58,289 nucleotides of DNA from Chroococcidiopsidaceae cyanobacterium CP_BM_ER_R8_30 (lineage in GTDB: Bacteria; Cyanobacteriota; Cyanobacteriia; Cyanobacteriales; Chroococcidiopsidaceae): NCBI GenBank assembly GCA_019244235.1, contig JAFASY010000252.1, forward strand, positions 1-58,289, given 5' to 3'. Under the pieces are notes generated by a model, which saw only the letters and a program-made list of their open reading frames with translations, did not search any database and was not told the origin of the DNA. Each line of letters opens with the position of its first letter. The stretch's first letter is position 1. The position numbers and the translations under genes were made by a program. Shown here one piece after another: positions 1 to 58,289 of this stretch.

Positions 1-121
1 CTTGAGCTGGGCACTTAGACATGTCGGACGCTTGGTGAGAGCCGATGAATCAGGAATGTCCAAAAGCGATTTTGGAAGCCTGCGCCATACCGCCTAAGCG
101 GTTGGCGTAGGAGGATGTCAC
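1..121 (+). mobile_element. Probable right end of a TnpB-type insertion sequence inserted in cas1
   Basis: The cas1 reading frame loses all family resemblance at about position 121, so the sequence to its left is foreign. It has two properties of IS200/IS605- or IS607-type right ends. First, a plus-strand frame is open from the window edge to a TAA at 95-97. Second, a strong nested hairpin lies next to the junction: CGCCA pairs with TGGCG on the outside and ACCGC pairs with GCGGT inside, around a CTAA loop (about 85-109). In TnpB elements the right end encodes the 3' part of the omega RNA and the guide is read from the flanking DNA, which here would be cas1. The family assignment is inference, because only the last ~120 bp are visible. 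Confidence 0.5.
2..97 (+). CDS. Possible C-terminal tail of a TnpB-like protein (partial, enters from the left edge)
   Basis: An open plus-strand frame of 31 codons runs from the window edge to TAA at 95-97, and the stop sits inside the hairpin described for the element end. The peptide is basic and hydrophilic, as TnpB C-termini often are, but no RuvC or zinc-finger motif falls in this short stretch. The call therefore rests on position: it lies next to a hairpin and abuts a broken gene. It overlaps the 3' end of the cas1 frame on the other strand. It could be chance, and sequence to the left of the window would settle it. Confidence 0.3.
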   Translation: MSWALRHVGRLVRADESGMSKSDFGSLRHTA

Positions 122-877
122 CAAATCTAGTGCCAGCGATGGGCGACCATAGCGTTGGGTGTGTAAATAGCCAAGATAGGGATCAAAGCCAACCAGATTG
201 ACAGCACTTTGGATATCATGACGGAGCAAAGCATAGCCCAAGCTGAGCAAAGCATTCACTGGATCAGTTGGCGGACGGCGACGACGGGCTTCAAACTGAA
301 ATCCTTCAGCCCGAATCAGTTGATTGAAACTGCCAAAATAGGCAGCACTACCTGCTCCCTCCAAGCCTCGTAGCGAATCAATGGAATCAGTTTTAGCAAT
401 CGGGGTGATCGCTTGTTCTAACTGAGTCAGTCCGTTCTGAAAATTGAGCTTGCTCAAGGAAGTCGCTGGAGCCTTCTCCAGGGAACCCTTGAGCTCTGAA
501 AACTCACGTTGCCCACGTAAGAGTGTATTGCGGTAGTTCTTCAGCTTTCCCCGGACAAAACCCTGCACTAGATGGGAAGCTTGATCTGAGGGAGCAATCG
601 CCTTCCACTGGGCTGCTCGGACAAAAATGTTTTTGGTCAGCTCCGGTTCCAAGCGCCCCAAATAGCGTCCCATACTAGTTAGAAAACTGAGGGGAATCTT
701 ACGCTCCAGCAATTCCATCACGGCAGCAGGAGAGACAGTTGTCCGTCCCAGAACAACCACGCCATCGACTTTAATCAGCGGCACATCCAGCAAGGTTTGC
801 TTATTTGCCCTGACAGTCAGTCGTTCGTCTGTTTTGCCAACAAAGGCATCGTCTTGAGTAATGTATATAGTTCCCAT
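50..877 (-). CDS. cas1: Cas1 integrase, truncated at the C-terminus and carrying an in-frame repeat insertion
   Basis: Cas1 is the integrase of the Cas1-Cas2 spacer-acquisition complex. The N-terminal beta domain (residues 1-80) and much of the alpha domain are well preserved, including the metal ligands E173 in RGLEGAG, H239 in YLHTQRYG and D251 in LALDL. Residues 128-144 are not Cas1-like; they come from a 51-bp palindromic repeat in the linker between domains. After L252 the expected MEEFR continuation, with the second acidic ligand and about 70-80 more residues, is replaced by 23 unrelated residues and TGA. The family is usually about 330 residues, against 275 here. Type I-D order predicts cas2 next; it is not in the window. 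The protein is very likely unable to integrate spacers. The gene identity is certain; loss of function is inferred. Confidence 0.93.
   Translation of the reverse strand: MGTIYITQDDAFVGKTDERLTVRANKQTLLDVPLIKVDGVVVLGRTTVSPAAVMELLERKIPLSFLTSMGRYLGRLEPELTKNIFVRAAQWKAIAPSDQASHLVQGFVRGKLKNYRNTLLRGQREFSELKGSLEKAPATSLSKLNFQNGLTQLEQAITPIAKTDSIDSLRGLEGAGSAAYFGSFNQLIRAEGFQFEARRRRPPTDPVNALLSLGYALLRHDIQSAVNLVGFDPYLGYLHTQRYGRPSLALDLVTSSYANRLGGMAQASKIAFGHS
446..496. repeat. Palindromic repeat inserted in frame in cas1
   Basis: A 51-bp segment runs from GAGCTTGCTCAAGG to CCTTGAGCTC. Its ends contain the inverted pair CTCAAGG/CCTTGAG and its centre is a CTGGAG/CTCCAG stem. Related segments lie at 15262-15354 and 35819-35908. 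The length is a multiple of three, so cas1 stays open and gains 17 codons (residues 128-144). Confidence 0.75.
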
Positions 878-936
878 AGGTTGTGATGTACCGAATCAAG
901 ATGTGCAGCTTTTGTGATGAAAAAATGCCCTATTCC

Positions 937-1524
937 CTACGTAACTTCTCGATATCGCTTCACTCTATCTGCGGCTTTTGGTAGGCATTGCTGATGGAGA
1001 CTGCACCCATTACAGCGCTGGGAATAGATAGCTAACGGCATCTTTCCGGTATGCAGTATTTCGGTAATGGCTGCAATCGTGGCAATTGTGTTCTGCCTCA
1101 GTTCAGCAGAAATCTCCACAGGCTGACGCTGGTGGGAGTGGGCATAGTAGATGTAGCCGAGATTTACAGGGCTTCCAGTCATCTCTTCTATACAAAGCGC
1201 CTGGGCACAAACCTGCAACGCATCATTGTCAAACTCTCCCCGATGTCCGCGCTTATATTCCACTGGATACCAGCAACTGTTAGTCTCCTCAATTAAGTCA
1301 GCTTTTCCAATCAGCCGATAACGTTCTGATTTCAACCAAATTGCCCGAATCTGCCAGGTGTCTTCCCGTTGCCCTTCACTCAAAGTATGAACGCGCTCGT
1401 GCAGGCTAGTTCCTTCAACGGTGTACTGATTGTCGGTAAATCCGTCAATGCAGAACATGCGCCAGCAGCGGTGGGGGCAGTAAGAGTAATGGTTTAAAGC
1501 CGCAATTGGGATGTAATCTTCCAT
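937..1524 (-). CDS. cas4: Cas4 nuclease of the adaptation module
   Basis: Cas4 is a RecB-like nuclease with an iron-sulfur cluster that trims prespacers and selects PAM-proximal ends with Cas1-Cas2. The sequence shows the cysteine set C16/C20 near the N-terminus (YCPHRC) and C171, C174 and C180 near the C-terminus, the expected cluster ligands. The nuclease core has D76 in GKADLI and E89-x-K91 in VEYKRG. About 195 residues is normal. The ATG at 1524 overlaps the cas6 stop by one base (TGATG); a GTG one codon upstream is the alternative start. Downstream, 59 bp separate it from cas1. It appears intact although its partner Cas1 is broken. Confidence 0.95.
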   Translation of the reverse strand: MEDYIPIAALNHYSYCPHRCWRMFCIDGFTDNQYTVEGTSLHERVHTLSEGQREDTWQIRAIWLKSERYRLIGKADLIEETNSCWYPVEYKRGHRGEFDNDALQVCAQALCIEEMTGSPVNLGYIYYAHSHQRQPVEISAELRQNTIATIAAITEILHTGKMPLAIYSQRCNGCSLHQQCLPKAADRVKRYREVT

Positions 1525-2339
1525 CACGCCCTCCTAATCATGCCCATCCCCATTGGGGTTTTGCGCCCAACACCTGCATAGAGGGCAAAGTCTGCCAGCG
1601 TATTGAGTTGTTTGATGGCGATTGCATCCACATCACCCAGAATCCGATAGCTGATAGTGCCGACACAGCCAGCCCACTTGCCCTCTGGATGATTGACGAG
1701 TTCAGTGCGGATGTCGAAGAAGCTAGGAAAAAGAGATTCAATCAGGGTTTCAGGAAAAGGAATGCCACTATAGCGATTCCATCGGTTCAACAGACTATGG
1801 AAGACACATTCTCGTGTCGGTAAGGCAGAGTCATATTTCCCTTGTCGGAAGGTGGCGGGAGTGCAAAGGCTGAAGCCTAGCTGGCGGATGTCATCTGATG
1901 CCTGTTCGTAAAGCTGGGCATAGGAATGGAAGTTTGCCCAAGGCTGCGTCGATTGGGCAGTGCCCAGAATGCTAGTGATTTGTAAATTTGCTGGACCTAA
2001 ATGCCAGGGATGGGTAGGGTTTAGGTTGAGCCACAAGGGAGTCAGATGACTAAACAGGGAATCGTCGAGGAGGGAAATACGCCACCAGCAAGGTGTTTCA
2101 GCAGGGATTGACTGTTTGTGTTCCCATTGCAGGGTGCGATCTTGACGGGTACGATTGCTCACTTGCAAAGAACTGAGGGTAAAAGATTTTTCAGTCTTTT
2201 GCCCGTGGAGGCGATCGCCCAGCTCTTGATGCACTGAACTCACTAGAGTCAGAAACAAGGCATGGAGATGCTTTCCGGTTAGATAACCTGATGGAATCAG
2301 TGAGGTGGGCAGTACGTTGAGAACAAGACTGTGGGGCAT
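1524..2339 (-). CDS. cas6: Cas6 crRNA-processing endoribonuclease (type I-D)
   Basis: Cas6 cleaves the CRISPR precursor transcript within each repeat to make crRNAs and, in type I-D, contributes the mature guides loaded into the Cas10d-Csc2-Csc1 complex. The 271-residue protein ends with the glycine-rich RNA-binding loop typical of Cas6 (YAGVGRKTPMGMGM), and an N-terminal ferredoxin-like fold is plausible. A histidine that could act in catalysis is present (for example H26 in the KHLHALF segment), but I cannot assign the active site. The start is six bases after the DUF1016 gene stop, and the stop overlaps the cas4 start, so the three are translationally close. No sign of damage. Confidence 0.93.
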   Translation of the reverse strand: MPHSLVLNVLPTSLIPSGYLTGKHLHALFLTLVSSVHQELGDRLHGQKTEKSFTLSSLQVSNRTRQDRTLQWEHKQSIPAETPCWWRISLLDDSLFSHLTPLWLNLNPTHPWHLGPANLQITSILGTAQSTQPWANFHSYAQLYEQASDDIRQLGFSLCTPATFRQGKYDSALPTRECVFHSLLNRWNRYSGIPFPETLIESLFPSFFDIRTELVNHPEGKWAGCVGTISYRILGDVDAIAIKQLNTLADFALYAGVGRKTPMGMGMIRRA

Positions 2340-2345
2340 AATCAG

Positions 2346-3365
2346 TTACTCCAGTCCTTCCATTAATTTCGCAACCTGCTCTGGAGCGGGAAGTTGGTCT
2401 TTTAGTTCTTGTGGAACGGTTGAAACAATTTGATAGGTTGCAACACCAATGGGCTTGTTAGATTCCCGCAGGGCATATTCCACAATCAGTCGATCTTTAG
2501 ACTTGCAAAGAATGATGCCAATTGCTGGATTTTCCTCCGCTAAACGCACTTGATCGTCTAGAACTGCCAGATAGAACTGCATTTTTCCAACATACTCTGG
2601 CAAAAAATCACCAATCTTAAGTTCTACAGCAACCAGACACTTGAGGCGACGATGATACAGCAACAGGTCGATAAAATATTCCTGGTCACTAATTTCTAAC
2701 CGATACTGACTACCAATAAAGGTGAACATCCCTCCCATTTCTCGTAGAAAAGGTTCCACCCTGCTCAGAATTGCCTGCTCTAACTGGCGTTCGGAGTGGC
2801 GATCGCTTAGTTCTAGAAAGTCAAACGTGTATTCATCTTTAACGGCGAGCTTTGCTTGGTTACGGATGTCTTCAGAGAGTGCCCGATCAAAATTAGTCTG
2901 GTTGAGCAGAGTTTTCTCATATGTCTGGTTCTCGATCTGATGAACCAAAACATTTTTTGTCCAACCAAATTTCCGAGTCATGCGGAGGTACAACTCCCGC
3001 TCCAGATCGTCTTTGCATTTCTCCAGGATGACCACATTATGAGTCCAACCAATTTCTCGCGCTAATGGTGCGAGTTTTTCTTGGTTGGCATAGGTTGAGT
3101 AGAAAAGCCGCATACGCCAGAGGTTAGCAGCAGAGAACCCACTGATGCCAGGAAACTCTGTCCGCAAGTCTTTTGCCAGTTGCTCAACTACAGATTTCCC
3201 CCAACTGGTTCCTTGTTGTTGAGAGACAATTAGTTTGCCAATGTCCCAGTAGAGAGCAATGAGTTCTCTGTTGACAGCTCTCAACGCTTCATATTGAGCA
3301 GAGCGAATTCGCTGTTTAACTTCGATCAGCAGATACTTGTAATTGTCGGGAATGGGGCTGGTCAT
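2346..3365 (-). CDS. DUF1016 (YhcG-type) PDDEXK nuclease inside the cas operon
   Basis: This 339-residue protein has the two-part YhcG/DUF1016 layout. The N-terminal helical domain contains AVNRELIALYWDIGKLI and a second conserved block around GFSAANLWRMRLFY. The C-terminal PDDEXK domain has D233 in FIDLLLYHR and E248-x-K250 in VAVELKIG. Family members are predicted DNA nucleases associated with restriction and recombination systems; a substrate is not known here. It is not a standard type I-D gene, yet it sits between cas3' (80 bp upstream) and cas6 (6 bp downstream) on the same strand, so it is probably co-transcribed. It may be an accessory defence nuclease or a guest gene that rides in the operon. 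Confidence 0.88.
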   Translation of the reverse strand: MTSPIPDNYKYLLIEVKQRIRSAQYEALRAVNRELIALYWDIGKLIVSQQQGTSWGKSVVEQLAKDLRTEFPGISGFSAANLWRMRLFYSTYANQEKLAPLAREIGWTHNVVILEKCKDDLERELYLRMTRKFGWTKNVLVHQIENQTYEKTLLNQTNFDRALSEDIRNQAKLAVKDEYTFDFLELSDRHSERQLEQAILSRVEPFLREMGGMFTFIGSQYRLEISDQEYFIDLLLYHRRLKCLVAVELKIGDFLPEYVGKMQFYLAVLDDQVRLAEENPAIGIILCKSKDRLIVEYALRESNKPIGVATYQIVSTVPQELKDQLPAPEQVAKLMEGLE

Positions 3366-3445: not shown

Positions 3446-5734
3446 TTAGGTGATCCAGAATTCTTCCTCATCCATTAAGCGGATTTTAATACCGTTCATA
3501 GCGGCAGTCATGATCCCAAATAATCCAGGAAAAATTCTGTAGCTCTTCTGAGCATCATCACAAGCTACTAAAAATGGATATGAATCAATGCCTTGTTTAT
3601 GCAGTCGAAAAATTACACCCTGGTTTGCTGTTTCTGACACAACAACTCCTGGCAACCAAGACTTTTCTAGTTCTTTAAGCAGAGGTGTTGGAGTAACAGC
3701 GCCTTTTAGCTGTCTTCGGATTTGACAATGTTGGAATGCCGTTAGTTTATTTAACTGGGTTCCAGTGAATTCTTCAGCTCTGCCGTAGTAGCGCAATTGG
3801 AAGCTTAGTTCATAGGTTGCTTGTGCACGAGCAACAATTTCAATCTCACCATTATTGCTAATGAACTCATAGTTCCTCAACAGATGAACTGGATCAAGTT
3901 GAGTTTCCTCTGATATATCAAGTAAAAAACCTTTTGGATCGCGGATGCATAAACTCTCAAACAGGCTAGAGCGAAACTGAAATAATGGTGCATAACTAGC
4001 GCTAAAGACTGAAGCAAAAATCTTAAGTTGGTGTGCCACCTCAGCATCTTCTCGAAACAGCTTCTCAAAGTCGCTTAATGAAACTTGCTTCGTTTTAAGC
4101 ATTTCCCAGTCTTCTGGGGATTCACTTCTAAGAAATGCCGCTGTGATTGCCCATCTGGATTTACCTTTAACAAACCTAAGTGGATCTTCAGCAATATCTT
4201 TCTTTGGTGCTGTAGCAATCGCTTGTGCAGCTTGTAAAGCTCTCATCCGCTGCTGATAGTACTTCCAGTCACGATTGCCGCCGAAAATAGCTTTTAGAGT
4301 CTCAAAAAGTTTTGGCACTAAGTCCGCTTGGGGTAAAGTTTCCAGTAATTCTTCTAGAATGAGCATTGGACGAGCAGCCTCTAAAAAAGCTTCTGACTGC
4401 CAGTATGCCCAGAGGAAAGGACGTTCAAGAGATGGAAGTTCTTGCAATTTCTGTTCGAGGGCATTGCGTCCAGCGTTCTCATCTAATACAGTTAAGCCTT
4501 CATTCCAGGCTCTTTCAGGAAGATAGGCGATCGCAGATGAAGGATTCTCAGTTTCTTTTTTGCCTAGCACTCGTCCCACCCGTCCAACACGCTGCCAAAA
4601 CACTGCACGATCGCGTGCTGAAAAAATTAACCAATCAAGATTTTGACGTAGGGGTGCTGGATCGCGTTCAAAGTTAAAGCCAACATCTATTGTACTTGTA
4701 GCTAAAATGACATGTTGTTGAGCTGCCCAGGCCCGATCTTTCTTAGGTGTAGAACCATGAATTCTGCCAAATTGATCTCCCAAACCTTTAGTTTTTAGTA
4801 GCCCAGCCAACTTATCAATCTGAACTTTGGAGTCTAGAATTACAGCTCCATTTTCATGAGGACATTTTGTTAAACGCCGAGCAATCTCATCTGCCAGTTC
4901 CGATAACAGCACGTCTCGCTCTGGTTGTGGACGAATCTCTAAATAGACAGCGGTTTGTGATGGAATTTGATGCTCTCCTGCCTCACCGTTAATTTTCTTA
5001 ATGCGAACTCCCCGACTCTCCAAAACTGTCAAGGCTGTTTCACACCCAGGCTCTGGTGTTGCTGTCAATAGAATAACTCGCCTACCAGCCTCAAAAAAAC
5101 CAAAGATGTACAGATAGGCTAAGTAAAAGAGCAATCCCACGAGTTGCTTTGCATCATATAAATGAAACTCGTCAAATATAATGGTTGAGAATTGCGTATA
5201 GAAGCTAGTTGCAACATTGACTTTATCAAGTCGATGGTAGCTAAAGAATGTTGCATAGTAAAAAATGTCTGGATTCGTCACCAGCAGTAGAGGAGAGTTC
5301 TCACCTATGTCTGGAAAAATTGTTGCTGGGTTCCTCAAAAGGTTATAGAGCTTCTCTCCTGGACGCGAACCAACAAGATCGTTCGACCACTTTCTGACTT
5401 CTTGTGCAGACACTGACTTGACAATGTGAGGTAATCCCGCAGCTTTCACAAATTCCTCTGCTGCCTTAGTTTGCTGTTCAATCAGAGCATTGGTAGGCGC
5501 GATATAAATTGCATTTTTGCTCGGCTGATGCAGTAGTACCGTTAAGCTTGCCTTGGTCTTGCCTGTACCTGTTGGAGCTAAGTCTAGGATAATATCGTGA
5601 TCTTTCGCCGCCTCAAAAACATCAACTTGGTGTTGTAATGCATTCTTGAGGCAATCTTTCAATGCTAGTGGAGGATCATTACAGGCGGCAATACTTCTGG
5701 GCTCTAGCTGAATTGAAATTGGTTTATGTGCCAT
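3446..5734 (-). CDS. cas3: Cas3' superfamily 2 helicase (type I-D, no HD domain)
   Basis: This is the ATP-dependent DNA helicase recruited by the I-D effector to unwind target DNA. Visible motifs are Walker A PTGTGKT (residues 54-60), a DEFH box (188-191), LTATPEP motif III (223-229) and QRVGRVGR motif VI (381-388). No HD nuclease domain is present; in type I-D that activity sits in Cas10d, so this is Cas3'. I chose the ATG at 5734 (MAHKPISIQL) rather than the upstream codon at 5806, because it overlaps the csc1 stop by only 11 bp and removes a leader that is antisense-like. In the Synechocystis I-D locus cas3 precedes cas10d, whereas here it follows csc1, a rearranged order. Confidence 0.94.
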   Translation of the reverse strand: MAHKPISIQLEPRSIAACNDPPLALKDCLKNALQHQVDVFEAAKDHDIILDLAPTGTGKTKASLTVLLHQPSKNAIYIAPTNALIEQQTKAAEEFVKAAGLPHIVKSVSAQEVRKWSNDLVGSRPGEKLYNLLRNPATIFPDIGENSPLLLVTNPDIFYYATFFSYHRLDKVNVATSFYTQFSTIIFDEFHLYDAKQLVGLLFYLAYLYIFGFFEAGRRVILLTATPEPGCETALTVLESRGVRIKKINGEAGEHQIPSQTAVYLEIRPQPERDVLLSELADEIARRLTKCPHENGAVILDSKVQIDKLAGLLKTKGLGDQFGRIHGSTPKKDRAWAAQQHVILATSTIDVGFNFERDPAPLRQNLDWLIFSARDRAVFWQRVGRVGRVLGKKETENPSSAIAYLPERAWNEGLTVLDENAGRNALEQKLQELPSLERPFLWAYWQSEAFLEAARPMLILEELLETLPQADLVPKLFETLKAIFGGNRDWKYYQQRMRALQAAQAIATAPKKDIAEDPLRFVKGKSRWAITAAFLRSESPEDWEMLKTKQVSLSDFEKLFREDAEVAHQLKIFASVFSASYAPLFQFRSSLFESLCIRDPKGFLLDISEETQLDPVHLLRNYEFISNNGEIEIVARAQATYELSFQLRYYGRAEEFTGTQLNKLTAFQHCQIRRQLKGAVTPTPLLKELEKSWLPGVVVSETANQGVIFRLHKQGIDSYPFLVACDDAQKSYRIFPGLFGIMTAAMNGIKIRLMDEEEFWIT

Positions 5735-6524
5735 TGCTGACAGCTCCACCACAAAACTGCAAGTTAGCTGGAATAACGAAGTCACCAACCTGCCAAGCCT
5801 CAGCATAAAATCGCAGATTTTTGAGCAGCGATGTTGGTGGTATGGAGATCAGATCGAAGGACAGTAAATTAATCCCTGTGGGTAAATCTGCTGTGCTGAA
5901 GTAGGCTTTACTGGTGTATTGGGCAAGAGGCAGGTGTACTAGGGGTTTTTCATCCAAAACTGTAACGCGGACTTTACTCATGAATTTGCCCAAGCGAATG
6001 TACTCAGGTAGTTCGCGGTCCCCAAACACTAGAGTATGAAATCGGTTGCCCCGCTCGATCATTCGTAGTCGCCCTGTCTGGGGATAGTTACTGGGGCGAA
6101 ACGTATTGGGTTTATCTCCTTGGCGCACCTTGATAATGTCCTCACGGGCTGTGGCAACACGGTTATTAGTCATCGCATACCAGTACGCATCTGAGAGAGC
6201 ATTGAACCGCTCAAATCGAAAGGTAGGATTGCTCTTGTCTGACCAAGCTGGAAGGACATAGCATTCTTGATTAAGGGGCGTTAAATCCTCGATATAACGC
6301 GGTCTTCCGGTGTCTCGTCCCGTGAGTCGATATGGCGATCGCGCCCAGCCAAAGGCATACACCAAGGCATAGTTACCAATTGTGCCCTCGGTGTAATAGG
6401 TATCTGATAGTTCCCTGGATGCAAAGAAAACGGGTTCTGCACACCAAAGTTCAATCAGTTTTGCTGTTTTGAACTTTGGTTTGGTCACATTGGCATTGTC
6501 TGGGAGACTCAGTTGCTCAGTCAT
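5724..6524 (-). CDS. csc1: Csc1 (Cas5d), type I-D effector subunit
   Basis: Csc1 is the Cas5-like subunit that caps the 5' handle of the crRNA in the type I-D effector and contacts Cas10d. The 266-residue product has the family length and features such as a WCAEPVFFASREL segment near residue 27 and an IGNYALVYAFGWARSPYR segment near residue 49. It starts three bases after the csc2 stop and overlaps the cas3' start by 11 bp, so it lies in a tightly packed operon. No truncation or frameshift is visible. The call rests on family resemblance plus its position between csc2 and cas3'. Confidence 0.92.
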   Translation of the reverse strand: MTEQLSLPDNANVTKPKFKTAKLIELWCAEPVFFASRELSDTYYTEGTIGNYALVYAFGWARSPYRLTGRDTGRPRYIEDLTPLNQECYVLPAWSDKSNPTFRFERFNALSDAYWYAMTNNRVATAREDIIKVRQGDKPNTFRPSNYPQTGRLRMIERGNRFHTLVFGDRELPEYIRLGKFMSKVRVTVLDEKPLVHLPLAQYTSKAYFSTADLPTGINLLSFDLISIPPTSLLKNLRFYAEAWQVGDFVIPANLQFCGGAVSNGT

Positions 6525-6527
6525 AGA

Positions 6528-7547
6528 CTAGTTCCCTGCTTCGACCGTTTCTTTCTTCTTGTTTTTGCCTTTTTTCGCTTCACCCATTTGGCGAAATGGC
6601 TCATAGGATTCGTCTAACCGTTTCAGGAAAGCTTCCCGCTCTGTGTCTGCCCAATGGCGATCAACATCAGCTATTACAGCAGCAAGTTCTTCATCAGACA
6701 GTTGCAGCGAAATACCTCGGCGGTTGCTCCACCCTGAAATGCTGTTCTTAGTAGCCTCAATTAACTCGCCATTATCCAGCGGGTGTTCTAATGGTTTATT
6801 GCTTGCGGTGAACTCATCATGAACTGCTTGTACCAACTCCAAGGAACTTGGCAATTCTGCAATACCGCCAAAAATGCCTAGAATTTGATTTTCCATACGT
6901 CCCACTCGGCTAGACACAGCACCATAGCGGCTAGTAAGCAAGATGTTGCCGACAATATAGCGAAACTCGTCTGCCGTTACATCTTTGAGAGTGACAATAT
7001 CAAGAAAATGGACCCCTGGTTTAATGTATTCACTGGTGTTCAGTGCAGTTGAAGCATTGCCCTTTTCATCACGCATTGTTCCATTTTCAAAAAGGGCATT
7101 GATAGTGCGATCACCAAGGGTATCAGTTGCCGTTAGTACACTGAAAGCATCCTCTGTCCAAATTCGGCTTTTCTGAGCACCACCACCACCTGCGGCAAAT
7201 CCATACAGAAAACAGTCAATGCACATCTCGCAGGGCGCATTTGTATTCAGAGCGCAAGGTGAACCCTCTTTGTTTGGGCGAAGCAAATTATTAGCACGAA
7301 GATGTTCGCGACCTTTTCGCCGCTCTGGTGCCACTTGTTTGCGCTTAGTCATCACCAATCGTTGCACCACTTGTTTGTCTGCTTGTCCGGCTTGAATAAA
7401 CTCGCGACACATTGGTTCGCCAGTGCCCTCAGTCCGCAGAATCAACTCAGATAAGGAGGTTCTCAAAACCACTAAACTGATCGTGCGTCCTTTGGGAAAG
7501 TTTTCGTAAGTAGGTGCAAAGAAGGGATTCAATTTTTCAATCGACAT
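6528..7547 (-). CDS. csc2: Csc2 (Cas7d), crRNA-binding backbone subunit
   Basis: Csc2 is the RAMP-fold protein that polymerises along the crRNA spacer and forms the backbone of the I-D effector. At 339 residues it has the usual length. A cysteine cluster at C98, C106, C109 and C112 marks the zinc-binding insertion known from Csc2 structures, followed by a glycine-rich loop (AAGGGGAQKSR) that fits an RNA-contacting segment. SRYGAVSSRVGRMENQILG lies in the conserved C-terminal half. It follows cas10d by 42 bp and precedes csc1 by 3 bp. It ends in a lysine-rich tail (KKGKNKKKE), which may add nucleic-acid affinity. Confidence 0.95.
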   Translation of the reverse strand: MSIEKLNPFFAPTYENFPKGRTISLVVLRTSLSELILRTEGTGEPMCREFIQAGQADKQVVQRLVMTKRKQVAPERRKGREHLRANNLLRPNKEGSPCALNTNAPCEMCIDCFLYGFAAGGGGAQKSRIWTEDAFSVLTATDTLGDRTINALFENGTMRDEKGNASTALNTSEYIKPGVHFLDIVTLKDVTADEFRYIVGNILLTSRYGAVSSRVGRMENQILGIFGGIAELPSSLELVQAVHDEFTASNKPLEHPLDNGELIEATKNSISGWSNRRGISLQLSDEELAAVIADVDRHWADTEREAFLKRLDESYEPFRQMGEAKKGKNKKKETVEAGN

Positions 7548-7589: not shown

Positions 7590-8027
7590 TTATGCAGCCG
7601 TCTCTTCAGCCTGTTTGTTAGTCTCTGCCTTTACTCTCAGTTCCCGACGCGCTTCCTCTAGGAAAAATAGATAGGCAGCTTCTAGATTTTTCTGATCGCT
7701 CAATAGCTTATCTGGACGCCCCTGATAGACTTCCTCATAGAGCTTCCGAACCACCGCGTAGTAATTTTTGATTTGTTCCAGCTTAGTTAAGCCCACGCCA
7801 TGTTCTCGAATCCGGTCAAGTCGGGTGTGATATTTCTGCACCAATGCTGCAAACATAAACTCCAAGTCCATATATGCTTTTTGGGAACGGGCTGCTGTGA
7901 CAAATTCCGCAAATGGTTCTGCAAGTGATGTTCGCTTCTCCGCAGAACTCCCCCAAAGTTTTGCCTCTGCGGCAATCTGAGCCGCTGCTTTTAGATAGCT
8001 GGTTAAAGCAGAATTTTCGTTTGGCAT
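7590..8027 (-). CDS. cas11d: Cas11d small subunit translated from an internal start of cas10d
   Basis: Type I-D effectors are known to need a small subunit made by internal translation of the 3' part of cas10d. The sequence supports this here: on the minus strand AGGAG lies four bases before an in-frame ATG at 8027, a far better ribosome site than the one ahead of cas10d itself. The product would be 145 residues (MPNENSALTSY onward), mostly helical and of the size expected for Cas11. It would line the groove of the complex next to Csc2. The SD and start are seen directly; the function follows from the known I-D mechanism. Confidence 0.8.
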   Translation of the reverse strand: MPNENSALTSYLKAAAQIAAEAKLWGSSAEKRTSLAEPFAEFVTAARSQKAYMDLEFMFAALVQKYHTRLDRIREHGVGLTKLEQIKNYYAVVRKLYEEVYQGRPDKLLSDQKNLEAAYLFFLEEARRELRVKAETNKQAEETAA

Positions 8028-10295
8028 AAGACTCCTCATTAGCGTTTGTAAAGGTTCACGAATCCGATTCCAGTTAAATCCAAGATTTGGCTCATCCTGC
8101 TCTCGCAAAATCCAGCGCAGTAGTACAAAGTAGAGACTAAATGGCTGTGCACAGGCACGCGCAAGGTCATACAGACAGTCATCTAATTTGGATAAGCTGA
8201 CTATCGCGATCGCCAAATCTGACAAACAGCGCAATCGGATAAGAATTTCTGCTGCCTCAAACTGGTCATATATCCCAACTTGAGAGTTTCTAGTACATAA
8301 AAGTGGTTGCAGCGCTGAGGGAACACCTTCCACGCGACCGAAGACATGGGACGAGATCTTCACTTGTAACCCAGCACTAAGAACGAATGGGAAACCAAAC
8401 TCAGGTGCCAGTGAAAGCTCTAACGCTAATCGCAGCGATTTCAACAGTGACAGTGATGCAGTAGTATCTCCCCAGGTAATCGGGATTGTTACGATTGAAT
8501 GAACAAAGTCACGACGCTTGGGCAAGGCGAACCCAACAACTTTATTCGCTTTGAATACGATTTCTTGATCTCGGTACAGTTTCAATTCATCTATGCTGAC
8601 AGGACCTCCTTCAGCATTTGTTGCAGCTGTATCTTCTAGCCAGTCCCGCCAGATTCGCAGAAGTTCTGGGCAAGAACCTTGTGGTAAAGCGAAGTGTAGA
8701 TAATAGGGTGGTTCCTTCTTTGCAGCTGGAAAGTGAGCGCCAACTGTCATGAGTTGATAGGCAAGTGCTGCCATTGGTTCAGCCTGTCGTACCGGATCGC
8801 TCGTCATTCCACCGGGTAGGCGATTGGAAAACATTTGTACCTTGGTTCCGATCGGCATTTTGTCAGAACTAAGCGTATTGGTTTCACTAATGGTTGCGCC
8901 CAAAGAACAGCGCTGACGGGGATTCGCTTCAACATAAGTAGCCAATTCACTGCTTCCAATTGTGTTTTTCACGAAATGACAACTGAGGGAACGTTGGACT
9001 GCTGAAATCACATCTTCTGCAACATCGGCATCACCTAGTTGAGTTTCGCTATTTCGTAACTCCAGCGATTCCTGCAAAGCCGCAATTACTCCCTGCATCC
9101 CATTCGGCGATTTTTTTGCAGCGAAGAGCGATCTCCCATACAAGGCATCAAATGGCTCTAGCGCAAGTCGCTCTTGCTCAGATAATCCCGCGTGAGCAGC
9201 GATTCTATCCCATACCTGTTTCGGTGTTAATTCCGGCTCAACTTCTCGGTAGCTGAGATAGGCTGCTTTCATCCCTTCAGAAATACTGAAGTCTTCTGCA
9301 TCGGCGACTGGAATTAGCTCCATAGCTAACGCTGTCTGCAATGCGGCAGGTTCAACTTTTTGATTACCCCATTTTTCAACATCACTTTGAATCTTTTCCA
9401 GCTTGAATCCGGCTTTCTTTTTCTCCAGTAGTGCTAGCACTACATTCAACACTTCTTCGCGATCGTGCTGTACCGCTTGATGGGAGATTTTAATGCCATC
9501 TTTAGTTGCTCTAACAAGTTGCTCAATGTTGCCGCCAAACACTTGATCGATTTTTGTTTGCCAAGCAGTGGCGATTTTCACAGTTAAATCTAGACCCTGA
9601 TTAACTCCTCCTTCAACTAGAACACCATCTGGAAACAGCGCTAACACGTTGTATTGCTGCTGATGCAAAACTTCTTCGCAAGCGCTCAACAGCATCGCGG
9701 TGATATATCCGTGGTCTTCTGTAATCCTGATTCGATAAAGCTCACAGGGACGACCAAGCGCATGAATCAATTCAGTTCTAATTTTCTGAACCAATTTTTC
9801 TTCTGCTAGTTCCAAATCAAATAAATCTGCTGCCCGAAGGATAGATGCCCACCGTTCAATTTGCGGATCTTCTGGTAAAAATCTGGCTCCATCGCTAACG
9901 TTGTGTCCCGAATGCCGCTCAATTAATTTTCGTGCCAATTCCAAATCTGCATCTGCTTGAATCAAAACACTGACCCCTGCTTGATCTAGCTGCTCCTTAA
10001 GAAATTTCTGATTTCTTGCCAGAGTTTTGACATTGCGACCGTTCGCGCCATCCAGCTTGTTGAGGTCATGAACAGCGGTTGCTGCCAGCAACACAGCTCT
10101 TTGTGGCTCTGGCACAGCAGCTAAGCGGCTCACGGTCAAAATAAACTGACACGCCGAATCCAAATGTTCAGCTAGCGTTCGGCTCTCACGTACACCATGC
10201 TGTCGGTGCCTACCATGAAGTTCATAAAGTTTAGGGCGAATTTCTTGAAAATAACGAGCTTCAAGTGTTTTAGGAGCGCGATTTAGCAGGGACAT
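7590..10295 (-). CDS. cas10d: Cas10d (Csc3), large subunit of the type I-D effector with HD nuclease domain
   Basis: Cas10d is the hallmark type I-D protein. It recognises the PAM and carries the HD nuclease that cuts DNA, a job done by Cas3 in other type I systems. The 901-residue protein shows the HD signature in its first 140 residues: H44, the H76-D77 pair in TAVHDLNK, and H128/H131 in ERHSGHN. The middle is a Cas10-like palm region without an obvious GGDD cyclase motif. The last ~145 residues are helical and can also be made separately as Cas11d. The ATG at 10295 lies three bases after the stop of a short upstream ORF in the same frame. It looks intact and is the first large gene of the operon. 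Confidence 0.95.
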   Translation of the reverse strand: MSLLNRAPKTLEARYFQEIRPKLYELHGRHRQHGVRESRTLAEHLDSACQFILTVSRLAAVPEPQRAVLLAATAVHDLNKLDGANGRNVKTLARNQKFLKEQLDQAGVSVLIQADADLELARKLIERHSGHNVSDGARFLPEDPQIERWASILRAADLFDLELAEEKLVQKIRTELIHALGRPCELYRIRITEDHGYITAMLLSACEEVLHQQQYNVLALFPDGVLVEGGVNQGLDLTVKIATAWQTKIDQVFGGNIEQLVRATKDGIKISHQAVQHDREEVLNVVLALLEKKKAGFKLEKIQSDVEKWGNQKVEPAALQTALAMELIPVADAEDFSISEGMKAAYLSYREVEPELTPKQVWDRIAAHAGLSEQERLALEPFDALYGRSLFAAKKSPNGMQGVIAALQESLELRNSETQLGDADVAEDVISAVQRSLSCHFVKNTIGSSELATYVEANPRQRCSLGATISETNTLSSDKMPIGTKVQMFSNRLPGGMTSDPVRQAEPMAALAYQLMTVGAHFPAAKKEPPYYLHFALPQGSCPELLRIWRDWLEDTAATNAEGGPVSIDELKLYRDQEIVFKANKVVGFALPKRRDFVHSIVTIPITWGDTTASLSLLKSLRLALELSLAPEFGFPFVLSAGLQVKISSHVFGRVEGVPSALQPLLCTRNSQVGIYDQFEAAEILIRLRCLSDLAIAIVSLSKLDDCLYDLARACAQPFSLYFVLLRWILREQDEPNLGFNWNRIREPLQTLMRSLMPNENSALTSYLKAAAQIAAEAKLWGSSAEKRTSLAEPFAEFVTAARSQKAYMDLEFMFAALVQKYHTRLDRIREHGVGLTKLEQIKNYYAVVRKLYEEVYQGRPDKLLSDQKNLEAAYLFFLEEARRELRVKAETNKQAEETAA

Positions 10296-10447: not shown

Positions 10448-10460
10448 GTACAAAGTGTAC
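10448..10460. promoter_or_regulatory. Palindrome GTACA-AAG-TGTAC, candidate operator between the WYL gene and the cas operon
   Basis: A perfect 5-bp inverted repeat with a 3-bp spacer lies 18 bp before the WYL regulator start and about 42 bp before the short ORF that heads the cas operon. Position in the shared 72-bp divergent region suggests a binding site for the WYL protein or for another regulator acting on both promoters. Binding is not shown by sequence. Confidence 0.4.
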
Positions 10461-10478
10461 GTGCAAACCGGAGTTTCA

Positions 10479-11336
10479 ATGGGTCGTCGAGGTCAGTCCA
10501 TTACACTGTCAATCTCAGACAGAGACAAAGCACAGTTAGAGCAAATCGCTGCTGAACAGGGCATGTTGTGGGGCAACCGCCCCAACATTTCCCGACTGGT
10601 AGAAGCGATCGCCCGTCGAGAGTTACTGATTGGTCGCAACAACGATTGGTCAGAAACTCGGATTGGGGCTTTACAGCAATCCATCCAGGCACTTGTTGAT
10701 ACTGGACATCCTCAGTTTGCCCAAATCATTGCCAAGCTTTTACAAGAGCGGAGCGAATTACCGATTCCCTTAAGAAATGAGATCGATCGCTTCCTGGAAA
10801 CTCCCGTTGTTCCCTGGCGGCTGGAAATCGATCAGTACATCCGCTGCCAGCAGCCTTTCCAACTAACGTACCGCGATGCTGCCGATCGCCCTTGGACATT
10901 CACGATCCGCCATGCCAGAATCGCTCTTTATGAACGGCGGCAATACCTGGATTGCTGGTGTGAAGAAACAGCTAGTAACCAAGACTTACCAGAGTTGCAC
11001 CATAACTGGAGCCTGCGCCTCGATCGTATCCCCGATGCAGCTCTAGGAACAGTTCGAGGTCAGTGGCATCGTAGCCTAGACACGGTTGAAGTCGAAATCC
11101 ACCTGTTGCGGGGACTGGCGTTCGCCTACGAGTCTAAACCTGGGGACATTGCTAATACCTGGTTGCCAGGTAGCAATCCTCCCATTCGCCAGGTGATCAG
11201 AAAAGTCTCCAACACTTTCTGGTTCTTGCGAGAGGTATTGCAGTATGGGGAAGATTGCGTAATTGTGTCTCCAGAGAATGTGCGAGAGCGATTTAAGCAA
11301 AAGCTGCGGTCGCTCAATGAGCTGTATGGACTGTAG
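10479..11336 (+). CDS. WYL-domain transcriptional regulator of the CRISPR-Cas locus
   Basis: The 285-residue protein has an N-terminal DNA-binding region (RGQSITLSISDRDKAQLEQ, then a helix-rich block) and a WYL-type domain in the middle to C-terminus (RHARIALYERRQYLDCWCEE). WYL proteins sense ligands, probably nucleic acids or nucleotides, and often control defence genes. Sll7009 of Synechocystis, a WYL-type protein beside a type I-D locus, acts as a repressor of that locus. This gene is divergent from the I-D operon with an operator-like palindrome between them, so the same role is likely. The ATG at 10479 follows GGAG by seven bases; the upstream GTG at 10455 is less likely. Confidence 0.85.
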   Translation: MGRRGQSITLSISDRDKAQLEQIAAEQGMLWGNRPNISRLVEAIARRELLIGRNNDWSETRIGALQQSIQALVDTGHPQFAQIIAKLLQERSELPIPLRNEIDRFLETPVVPWRLEIDQYIRCQQPFQLTYRDAADRPWTFTIRHARIALYERRQYLDCWCEETASNQDLPELHHNWSLRLDRIPDAALGTVRGQWHRSLDTVEVEIHLLRGLAFAYESKPGDIANTWLPGSNPPIRQVIRKVSNTFWFLREVLQYGEDCVIVSPENVRERFKQKLRSLNELYGL

Positions 11337-56876: not shown

Positions 56877-57000
56877 GAAGGCGACGAACATATTCCCTCA
56901 AGATATGCGCCATCGATACCTTTTTCAGTTCGGCGTAAGCCTGTAACTTGGCATATTCTTCAGAATCTAAACGGATTTTTAAGCTCTTGTCTTTAATCAT
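56848..57000 (-). CDS. Ribbon-helix-helix-like small protein, divergent from TnpB
   Basis: The 50-residue protein (MIKDKSLKIRLDSEEYAKLQ, then AELKKVSMAHILREYVRRLP) has the beta-strand and two-helix pattern of a CopG/RHH DNA-binding protein. The start at 57000 was chosen, since 25 residues more from the upstream start would overlap TnpB. It lies 28 bp from the TnpB ATG on the other strand. Small RHH genes next to TnpB are common in cyanobacterial elements and may regulate tnpB. It overlaps the end of the GNAT gene by 29 bp. Confidence 0.7.
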   Translation of the reverse strand: MIKDKSLKIRLDSEEYAKLQAYAELKKVSMAHILREYVRRLPNPKDPVRH

Positions 57001-57028
57001 CGGAGTACAAATGGGGTACAATATCTTT

Positions 57029-58289
57029 ATGATTTTAACCCGACGCACTACCTTCAGGCTGTATCCCACTGCCATCCAAGAGCAAAAGCTTTATAAATGG
57101 AGGCGTCTCCACGCCTACTTGTTCAATGCGGCCATTAGCAATCGTAGAACCCAGTACGAGAAGTTTGGGCATTCAGTTGACTACTTTGAGCAGCAGAACT
57201 GTCTGCCAGTGTTTAAAGAAGTTTGGACTGATTACAAGGCGTTGGGTTCTCATGCTCTACAGGCAACTCTTAAGCGCGTAGACATGGCGTATCAAAGATT
57301 TTTTCAAGGTTTAGGAGATTACCCAAAGTTCAAATCTATTCGTCATTACAGCGGTTGGACTTATCCTGATAGAGCTGGTTGGAAAGCTCATACAATTGGG
57401 GATAACGGTTATTTGGAATTGTCTAATTTAGGGCAGATTCAAATGAGGGGCAAAGCCAAAATCTGGGGGAATCCAACCACTTGTACAATTGTGCATCGTC
57501 ACGGCAAATGGTATGCTAGCATCACGATAAACCGTGAGCCTGTATCTAGAGAATTAGGGACTGGCTCGATTGGTATTGATTTTGGAACAAACACGGCTGC
57601 TGCGATTTCTGATGGGGAGAATGGATATTTACTCTCGAATCCTCGTTGGTTAAAACAAGCAATGCCCAAAATCAAAAAAGCTTCTAAAGATAAGCGTCGT
57701 AAACGTGCGCCAAATCGGAAGAAGAAGATCAAAGCTTCTAGAAGATGGAAACATGCATCAAAAAAGGTGAGTCAACTACAGCGTAAGATTGCTTGCTCTA
57801 GGCAGAACTGGGTTCATCACCAAGCAATACAGATCACAAGCGGTAACAGCATGGTTGCTTCGGAAAAACTAGAAGTTAAGAACATGATCCGCAAAGCTAA
57901 ACCAGGTAGCAAAAGGAAACAGCAAAAAACAGGACTCAATCGCTCTATTCTTGATGTTGGTTGGGGCATGTTAAAAGGCGCGATCAGGTACAAGTTAGAG
58001 GAAGGCGGCGGTGTTTTTGTAGAAGTCCCTACAAAAAAAGTGGCTCCATCTCAAACTTGTCCTAAATGCGGAGATCGAAAGGAAAAAGAACGTGGTCAAC
58101 GGATTCATGCTTGTCAGAAGTGTGGCTATGTTCAAGATAGAGATCTGGCTGCTGCTGAGGTGATGGTTTTGTGGGCTAGAGGTGTTCTACCGGGGTTTGG
58201 AACGAGCCTCGCAAACGTCGATGTCTCCAGCTCTACTTTGTCACCCAAAGCTCGTAAGAGTTGTGGAGGGATGAGGCAACTGGGACAGA
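57029..58289 (+). CDS. tnpB: TnpB RNA-guided endonuclease (partial, runs off the right edge)
   Basis: The frame is open for 420 codons to the edge. RuvC residues are D184 (SIGIDFGTN), E279 (ASEKLEVKNM) and D372 (VQDRDLAAAEV). The zinc finger has C344, C347, C362 and C365 (CPKCG and CQKCG). The N-terminal HTH (RRTTFRLYPTAIQEQKLYKW) is present. TnpB proteins are omega-RNA-guided nucleases that cleave DNA at a TAM and support persistence of the element. All catalytic residues appear intact. It ends probably within ~60 bp past the window edge. Confidence 0.93.
   Translation, partial: MILTRRTTFRLYPTAIQEQKLYKWRRLHAYLFNAAISNRRTQYEKFGHSVDYFEQQNCLPVFKEVWTDYKALGSHALQATLKRVDMAYQRFFQGLGDYPKFKSIRHYSGWTYPDRAGWKAHTIGDNGYLELSNLGQIQMRGKAKIWGNPTTCTIVHRHGKWYASITINREPVSRELGTGSIGIDFGTNTAAAISDGENGYLLSNPRWLKQAMPKIKKASKDKRRKRAPNRKKKIKASRRWKHASKKVSQLQRKIACSRQNWVHHQAIQITSGNSMVASEKLEVKNMIRKAKPGSKRKQQKTGLNRSILDVGWGMLKGAIRYKLEEGGGVFVEVPTKKVAPSQTCPKCGDRKEKERGQRIHACQKCGYVQDRDLAAAEVMVLWARGVLPGFGTSLANVDVSSSTLSPKARKSCGGMRQLGQ

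Follow-up and report, generated by a model that had tools for sequence, protein, structure and literature searches.

The first 121 bases of the window (the whole 58,289-nucleotide stretch that was analysed, which is the whole of contig C39) have the features of the right end of an IS200/IS605-type TnpB element, and they are joined directly to a type I-D cas1 gene that is cut short. In all likelihood, an element bearing tnpB has inserted in this gene right after the LALDL codons; the cas1 break, the boundary of the element, and the family to which its end belongs are all shown below and carry this reading. The features are collected in Table 1.

Table 1. Features of the window at the cas1 junction and in the type I-D locus
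Feature	Position	Strand	Basis or remark
Right end of IS200/IS605-type TnpB element	1-121	+	Similar DNA in other genomes, covariance model; cut by contig end at base 1
C-terminal tail of tnpB frame, 31 codons and stop	2-97	+	Tail similarity to L162 and L232 TnpBs; gene start outside contig
First hairpin, TCCAAAA-GCGA-TTTTGGA	59-76	+	Predicted fold of window; absent from consensus structure
GAAG tetranucleotide 5' of main hairpin	75-78	+	Candidate transposase guide tetranucleotide, by analogy (PMC6006769)
Main right-end hairpin	79-111	+	Predicted fold and consensus structure
Terminal TCAC, element end	118-121	+	Aligned right ends
cas1 stretch, putative TnpB guide, 16 bases	122-137	+	By comparison with ISDra2 (PMC8612924)
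Truncated type I-D cas1	50-877	-	Native part 122-877, remainder read from element; profile matches, relatives' loci
cas4	937-1527	-	TIGR00372, 1-180 of 180
cas6	1524-2339	-	TIGR01877, 2-200 of 200; PADLOC Cas6d
YhcG/DUF1016-type PDDEXK nuclease gene	2346-3365	-	PADLOC PDC-S02; between cas3' and cas6
cas3'	3446-5806	-	TIGR03158, 1-357 of 357; PADLOC Cas3d, 1-758 of 758
csc1	5724-6524	-	TIGR03159, 2-225 of 225
csc2	6528-7547	-	TIGR03157, 1-280 of 282
cas10d	7590-10295	-	PADLOC Cas10_Id, 3-891 of 893, 1545 bits
WYL-type regulator gene	10455-11336	+	Divergent from cas10d

Truncation of the type I-D cas1 gene

The minus-strand Cas1 frame encodes 275 amino acids and closes with a TGA that can be read directly at 50-52, and its similarity to type I-D relatives stops at base 122, about 95 residues early. 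In a profile search, TIGR04093 matches residues 3-253 with positions 2-240 of its 334, and the Pfam Cas_Cas1 match reaches only 234 of 283 model positions. The original prediction had described cas1 as recognizable up to LALDL and foreign from there on, with its frame ended by the minus-strand TGA at 50, and both points agree with what we find, the similarity being lost exactly at 122. A search for I-D cas1 covered 100 genomes, our own included; 48 of the 99 others gave a match to Cas1 residues 1 to 253-255 at 63-88% identity, all 48 reported in open frames of at least 334 amino acids (one with an in-frame TGA), and two more (G064 and G098) contain pieces of Cas1 only. Among 72 loci from named genomes, the C-terminal part of Cas1 follows the truncation point in every one, and cas2 lies downstream of cas1 in 71, the exception (L084) ending soon past cas1.

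The residues at the break were compared in an alignment of full-length Cas1 with 14 relatives whose Cas1 is complete. LDL or its equivalent is followed by MEEFRP in these 14 proteins, whereas the window has VTSSYANR instead and altogether 22 residues past LDL before the stop. Solved Cas1 structures align with a full-length relative across the C-terminal part that the window lacks, where an acidic residue would bind metal. Without the MEEFRP segment and everything C-terminal to it, the truncated Cas1 is probably inactive.

Earlier in the gene, positions 444-493 hold a palindromic repeat of about 50 bases, which adds a net 15 residues in frame and is absent from the 14 aligned relatives. It occurs at no fewer than 39 further places in the genome (40 of 86 candidates were scored), and of 30 copies that were looked at, 18 fall within open frames of at least 150 amino acids, in three reading frames, which is reminiscent of the palindromic elements in Rickettsia genes. 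This short extra stretch and the hairpin at 59-76 both lie beyond the account given in the original prediction.

A conserved family of TnpB right ends

The nested hairpin of the foreign part can be read directly, CGCCA (83-87) and TGGCG (103-107) enclosing ACCGC (89-93) and GCGGT (98-102), and the plus-strand frame 2-97 closes inside it with a TAA at 95-97, just as had been claimed. The predicted fold of bases 1-121 has a z score of -2.70, with 1 of 200 shuffled sequences folding as well. A DNA search with bases 1-128 across 291 genomes of the order, in which a maximum of three candidates was scored per genome, found right-end-like DNA in at least 30 genomes, our own and 29 others. At least 42 places besides the window match; of 42, 23 end exactly at 121, 38 end at 120-128, and 4 end earlier, and by eye the flanks past this boundary look unrelated to one another.

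We aligned 29 right ends (alignment A1), the window and 28 others, after dropping L165, which is without a clear terminal motif. In these rows, all found through their similarity to the window, the consensus hairpin has 12 pairs, 8 of them with compensatory changes on both sides, and the conserved structure ends at the element boundary, as an omega RNA (reRNA) does. GAAG together with a terminal TCAC is present in 26 of the 29 rows (the window and 25 of the 28 others), the remainder being two rows with GAAG and TTAC and one that is shifted. The transposases of the IS200/IS605 family are described as locating the cut by a tetranucleotide 5' of the hairpin foot together with the final tetranucleotide of the right end (PMC6006769), and the GAAG and TCAC of the window match this arrangement.

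A link to tnpB itself comes from two sources. One of the matching places, in a plasmid of Oscillatoria nigro-viridis, overlaps the end of a gene annotated as RNA-guided endonuclease TnpB and extends slightly past it. The element on this plasmid, pOSC7112.02 (L190), resembles the window in its main hairpin and terminal GTCAC, with 85% identity over 75-121, and in having the tnpB stop within the hairpin region; unlike the window, it has a different TnpB protein tail, and L241, the same element, shows no tail similarity either. The other source is the frame 2-97, which was compared with 17 C-terminal tails of TnpBs. The tails of L162 and L232, themselves nearly the same, gave scores that were equaled by 2 and 7 of 1,000 shuffles, respectively (uncorrected for the 17 tails tried); L174 was equaled by 43 of 1,000, and the other 14 by more than 100 of 1,000. 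In L162, L232, and the window alike, the tnpB stop precedes the end of the element by 24 bases. The tail peptide had no match at E up to 10 against plasmids, and in an Rfam search of window 1-1000, listed at E up to 1, no family reached its gathering score; the sole match, at 15.5 bits where the gathering score is 50, was taken as chance. The similar ends, the covariation, the plasmid TnpB match, and the tail similarity together support the original identification of the right end of a probable TnpB element, and the 23 places that end at 121 place its boundary at 121|122, directly before cas1, again as proposed.

The family hairpins also occur at L161, L166, L176, and L177, where the longest frame ending nearby is by eye not TnpB-like; these are possibly small noncoding copies.

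TnpB elements in the same genome

The covariance model R1, built from the right end and run on our own genome, gives 26 hits with E no higher than 1 (23 of them with E < 0.01), the window included. For 14 of these hits, a TnpB zinc ribbon on the same strand lies 10-201 bases upstream, where about 0.07 would be expected by chance; the other 12 have no TnpB domain within 500 bases upstream, the window being counted among them with its upstream side cut off. The genome has 57 matches to the TnpB zinc ribbon (51 over the curated cutoff), several of its TnpB matches being short or interrupted by stops, and 11 matches to the Y1 TnpA family, of which two are short pieces and one has a stop; none is known to be the transposase of this element. 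Since zinc-ribbon, Y1 TnpA, and right-end matches are so many, a TnpB insertion of this kind is not surprising here.

Some of these numbers would also suit an element that is only a remnant, with tnpB decayed or deleted, so that cas1 is broken but the element gives rise to no active TnpB carrying this guide. We regard this as possible but doubtful: family right ends without a nearby TnpB domain and short or stop-containing TnpB matches fit it, whereas the 31-codon tail frame of the window is open, and its stop keeps the distance to the end seen in L162 and L232.

The type I-D locus and its adaptation genes

The effector set of a CRISPR system decides its subtype, and cas1 and cas2 are its adaptation genes. 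The type I-D effector genes cas10d, csc1, csc2, cas3', and cas6 are all present with near end-to-end NCBIfam or PADLOC model matches, cas4 looks whole too, and the claim that the effector genes look intact holds; Cas10d had no match at E 0.001 in Pfam, NCBIfam, or the PDB. In the I-D operon of Leptolyngbya sp. FACHB-321 (L058), csc2, csc1, cas3', cas6, cas4, and cas1 come in the same order at 75-86% identity, but there cas1 is full and followed by cas2, and the YhcG-type gene is lacking. This gene was found in none of the 72 relatives' loci, 14 of which show both cas3' and cas6.

On the adaptation side, no full I-D cas1 with cas2 was found: cas1 is cut at residue 253/254, and the assembly yielded no I-D cas2, the Cas2 family exceeding its cutoff only on another contig, C316. 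Pieces taken from a relative to find the remaining part of cas1 and the I-D cas2 likewise match only C316 genes in the assembly. A search of the window gave no CRISPR array, and the G005 repeat pattern, searched in the genome with one mismatch, gave 3 single sites, a search by which a differing repeat would be missed. C316 carries a system of another subtype, assigned by NCBIfam to type I-MYXAN for cas6, cas8, cas5, and cas1, with cas3, cas7, cas4, and a Cas2 match in addition; its cas4-cas1-cas2 set is complete, it has two sets of repeats with 8 and 5 copies, and its Cas1 is 34% identical to that of the window. The original prediction of interference without adaptation is therefore supported in one half: the effector genes appear complete, whereas the searches gave no I-D array and the C316 adaptation set is present. 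Because C316 might serve the I-D system, the cell may still be capable of adaptation.

Adjoining the array and the cas2-cas1-cas4 genes of the C316 system is a frame (L057, 6040-6828) with a TnpB-like C-terminal part and an unmatched N-terminal part.

The target site and a possible larger loss

The six bases before the guide are TTCCAT (42) or CTCCAT (30) in the 72 relatives, giving an expected preinsertion TCCAT. The left-end flanks of related elements are TTTAG (L222-L224), TTAG (L228-L230), and TTAC (L242 and L243), with boundaries taken from pairs of copies, and about TTTAAC for L183 and L187, judged by eye. The left-end guide was considered by the tetranucleotide pairing rule of IS200/IS605 ends in five cases picked by eye, which serve as illustration only; by eye, L174, L232, and L244 do not fit. 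The target motif of this element may be a different one, the site may have differed in this strain, or the history may have been more complex.

The difference between TCCAT and the flank motifs of related elements speaks against the favored reading of a tnpB-element insertion. So do the lack of any tnpB body or left end, in a contig that starts at base 1, the lack of an Rfam family at its gathering score, and the fact that 15 of the 17 compared TnpB tails are not clearly similar to that of the window. Bases 1-140 are moreover single copy, the next best match in the genome having E 0.67 over 16 bases, although where a contig breaks the same sequence would often be met on either side. One more complex history is an insertion with, or before, a larger loss in which the remaining cas1, cas2, and perhaps the array were deleted past the element. 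We consider it rather unlikely. In the assembly we indeed found neither the C-terminal part of cas1 nor the I-D cas2 nor an I-D array, and the expected motif is unlike the known target motifs of related elements; however, this is a draft of 328 contigs at 97% completeness with a contig end at base 1, and an assembly gap explains the absences too, while a deletion on the far side would leave the motif next to the right end unchanged.

The contig ends

Only the 31-residue tail of TnpB is in the contig, the RuvC and zinc-ribbon part being expected before base 1, and the element body, the left end, and the remaining cas1 were not found elsewhere in the assembly. The junction 121|122 sits right at the edge of its contig, the draft is rich in TnpB elements, and the junction might in principle be an assembly error that joined a right end from elsewhere to cas1; this is highly unlikely, as the right end is unique in the assembly and is joined exactly at the element boundary.

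Both ends of C39 lie within TnpB elements, a plus-strand TnpB frame of another type (56948-58289) running off the right contig end. That the contig is circular and this frame supplies the missing body was rejected as scarcely credible: despite TnpB sequence at both ends, three plasmid relatives and one from our own genome continue past QLG/QLA with tails unlike the left-end tail, and direct joining of the ends gives a stop two codons on.

Two further contigs, C134 and C168, start with the same 147 bases (L257 1-147 and L258 1-147), which end exactly at a family right end; here the terminal bases are TTTAC, and the tetranucleotide before the hairpin is by eye AAAG, not GAAG.

Discussion

We favor an insertion of a tnpB-bearing element in the type I-D cas1 gene, and propose the following course. 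The element would have entered directly past the LALDL codons, and bases 1-121 would be its right end, made up of the final 31 tnpB codons, two hairpins, and the terminal TCAC. By analogy with studied TnpBs, transcription of this end would yield an omega RNA with the cas1 bases from 122 onward as its guide; the TnpB protein, encoded outside the contig, would cut copies of cas1 that are free of the element, with repair restoring it.

The model for these steps is ISDra2. In the report on it (PMC8612924), its TnpB binds a right-end RNA that takes roughly its final 16 bases from the flank, a source described as constant among studied TnpBs, and cuts the donor joint left by excision, for which the authors propose that repair brings the element back. 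In a preprint (PMC11870625), this activity is characterized as an insertion-sequence drive in plasmids. As in the window, the right-end hairpin of ISDra2 overlaps the 3' end of tnpB, and the boundary is followed by a flank corresponding to the would-be guide; unlike ISDra2, the element is seen here in its last 121 bases only, and the site predicted from relatives is not TTGAT (PMC8612924). If the element works like studied TnpBs, the boundary at 121|122 means that its guide would be window 122-137 and start CAAATCTAGTGCCAGC, in keeping with the prediction that it begins with cas1 sequence.

It had further been suggested that a nuclease is thereby guided against cas1, one RNA-guided nuclease parasitizing another. 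The structural reading stands, but parasitism is overstated. A studied TnpB draws its guide from the flanking DNA and cuts at the joint that excision leaves, so such an element normally carries a guide against its own empty site, and thus against the host gene; to call this one RNA-guided nuclease parasitizing another says little beyond known TnpB behavior. As an instance of a mobile element that breaks a defense gene, the window is clear, though rather ordinary. Our literature search met no published case of a TnpB element inside cas1; absence from print is not claimed.

A stronger reading, which we think quite improbable, is that an active TnpB with the cas1 guide acts as a drive against adaptation: whenever recombination or gene transfer brought in an intact I-D cas1 with the site, TnpB would cut it and it would be converted. 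If this were true, the TnpB drive would prevent this CRISPR system from acquiring memory of new invaders, among them the element itself. With its covariation, the right-end family could be of use in delimiting the TnpB elements of cyanobacteria. The locus offers a concrete example from nature of a TnpB-type element disrupting a CRISPR adaptation gene, one needed to record new invaders, and it makes testable the question of whether TnpB helps to keep a defense gene broken.
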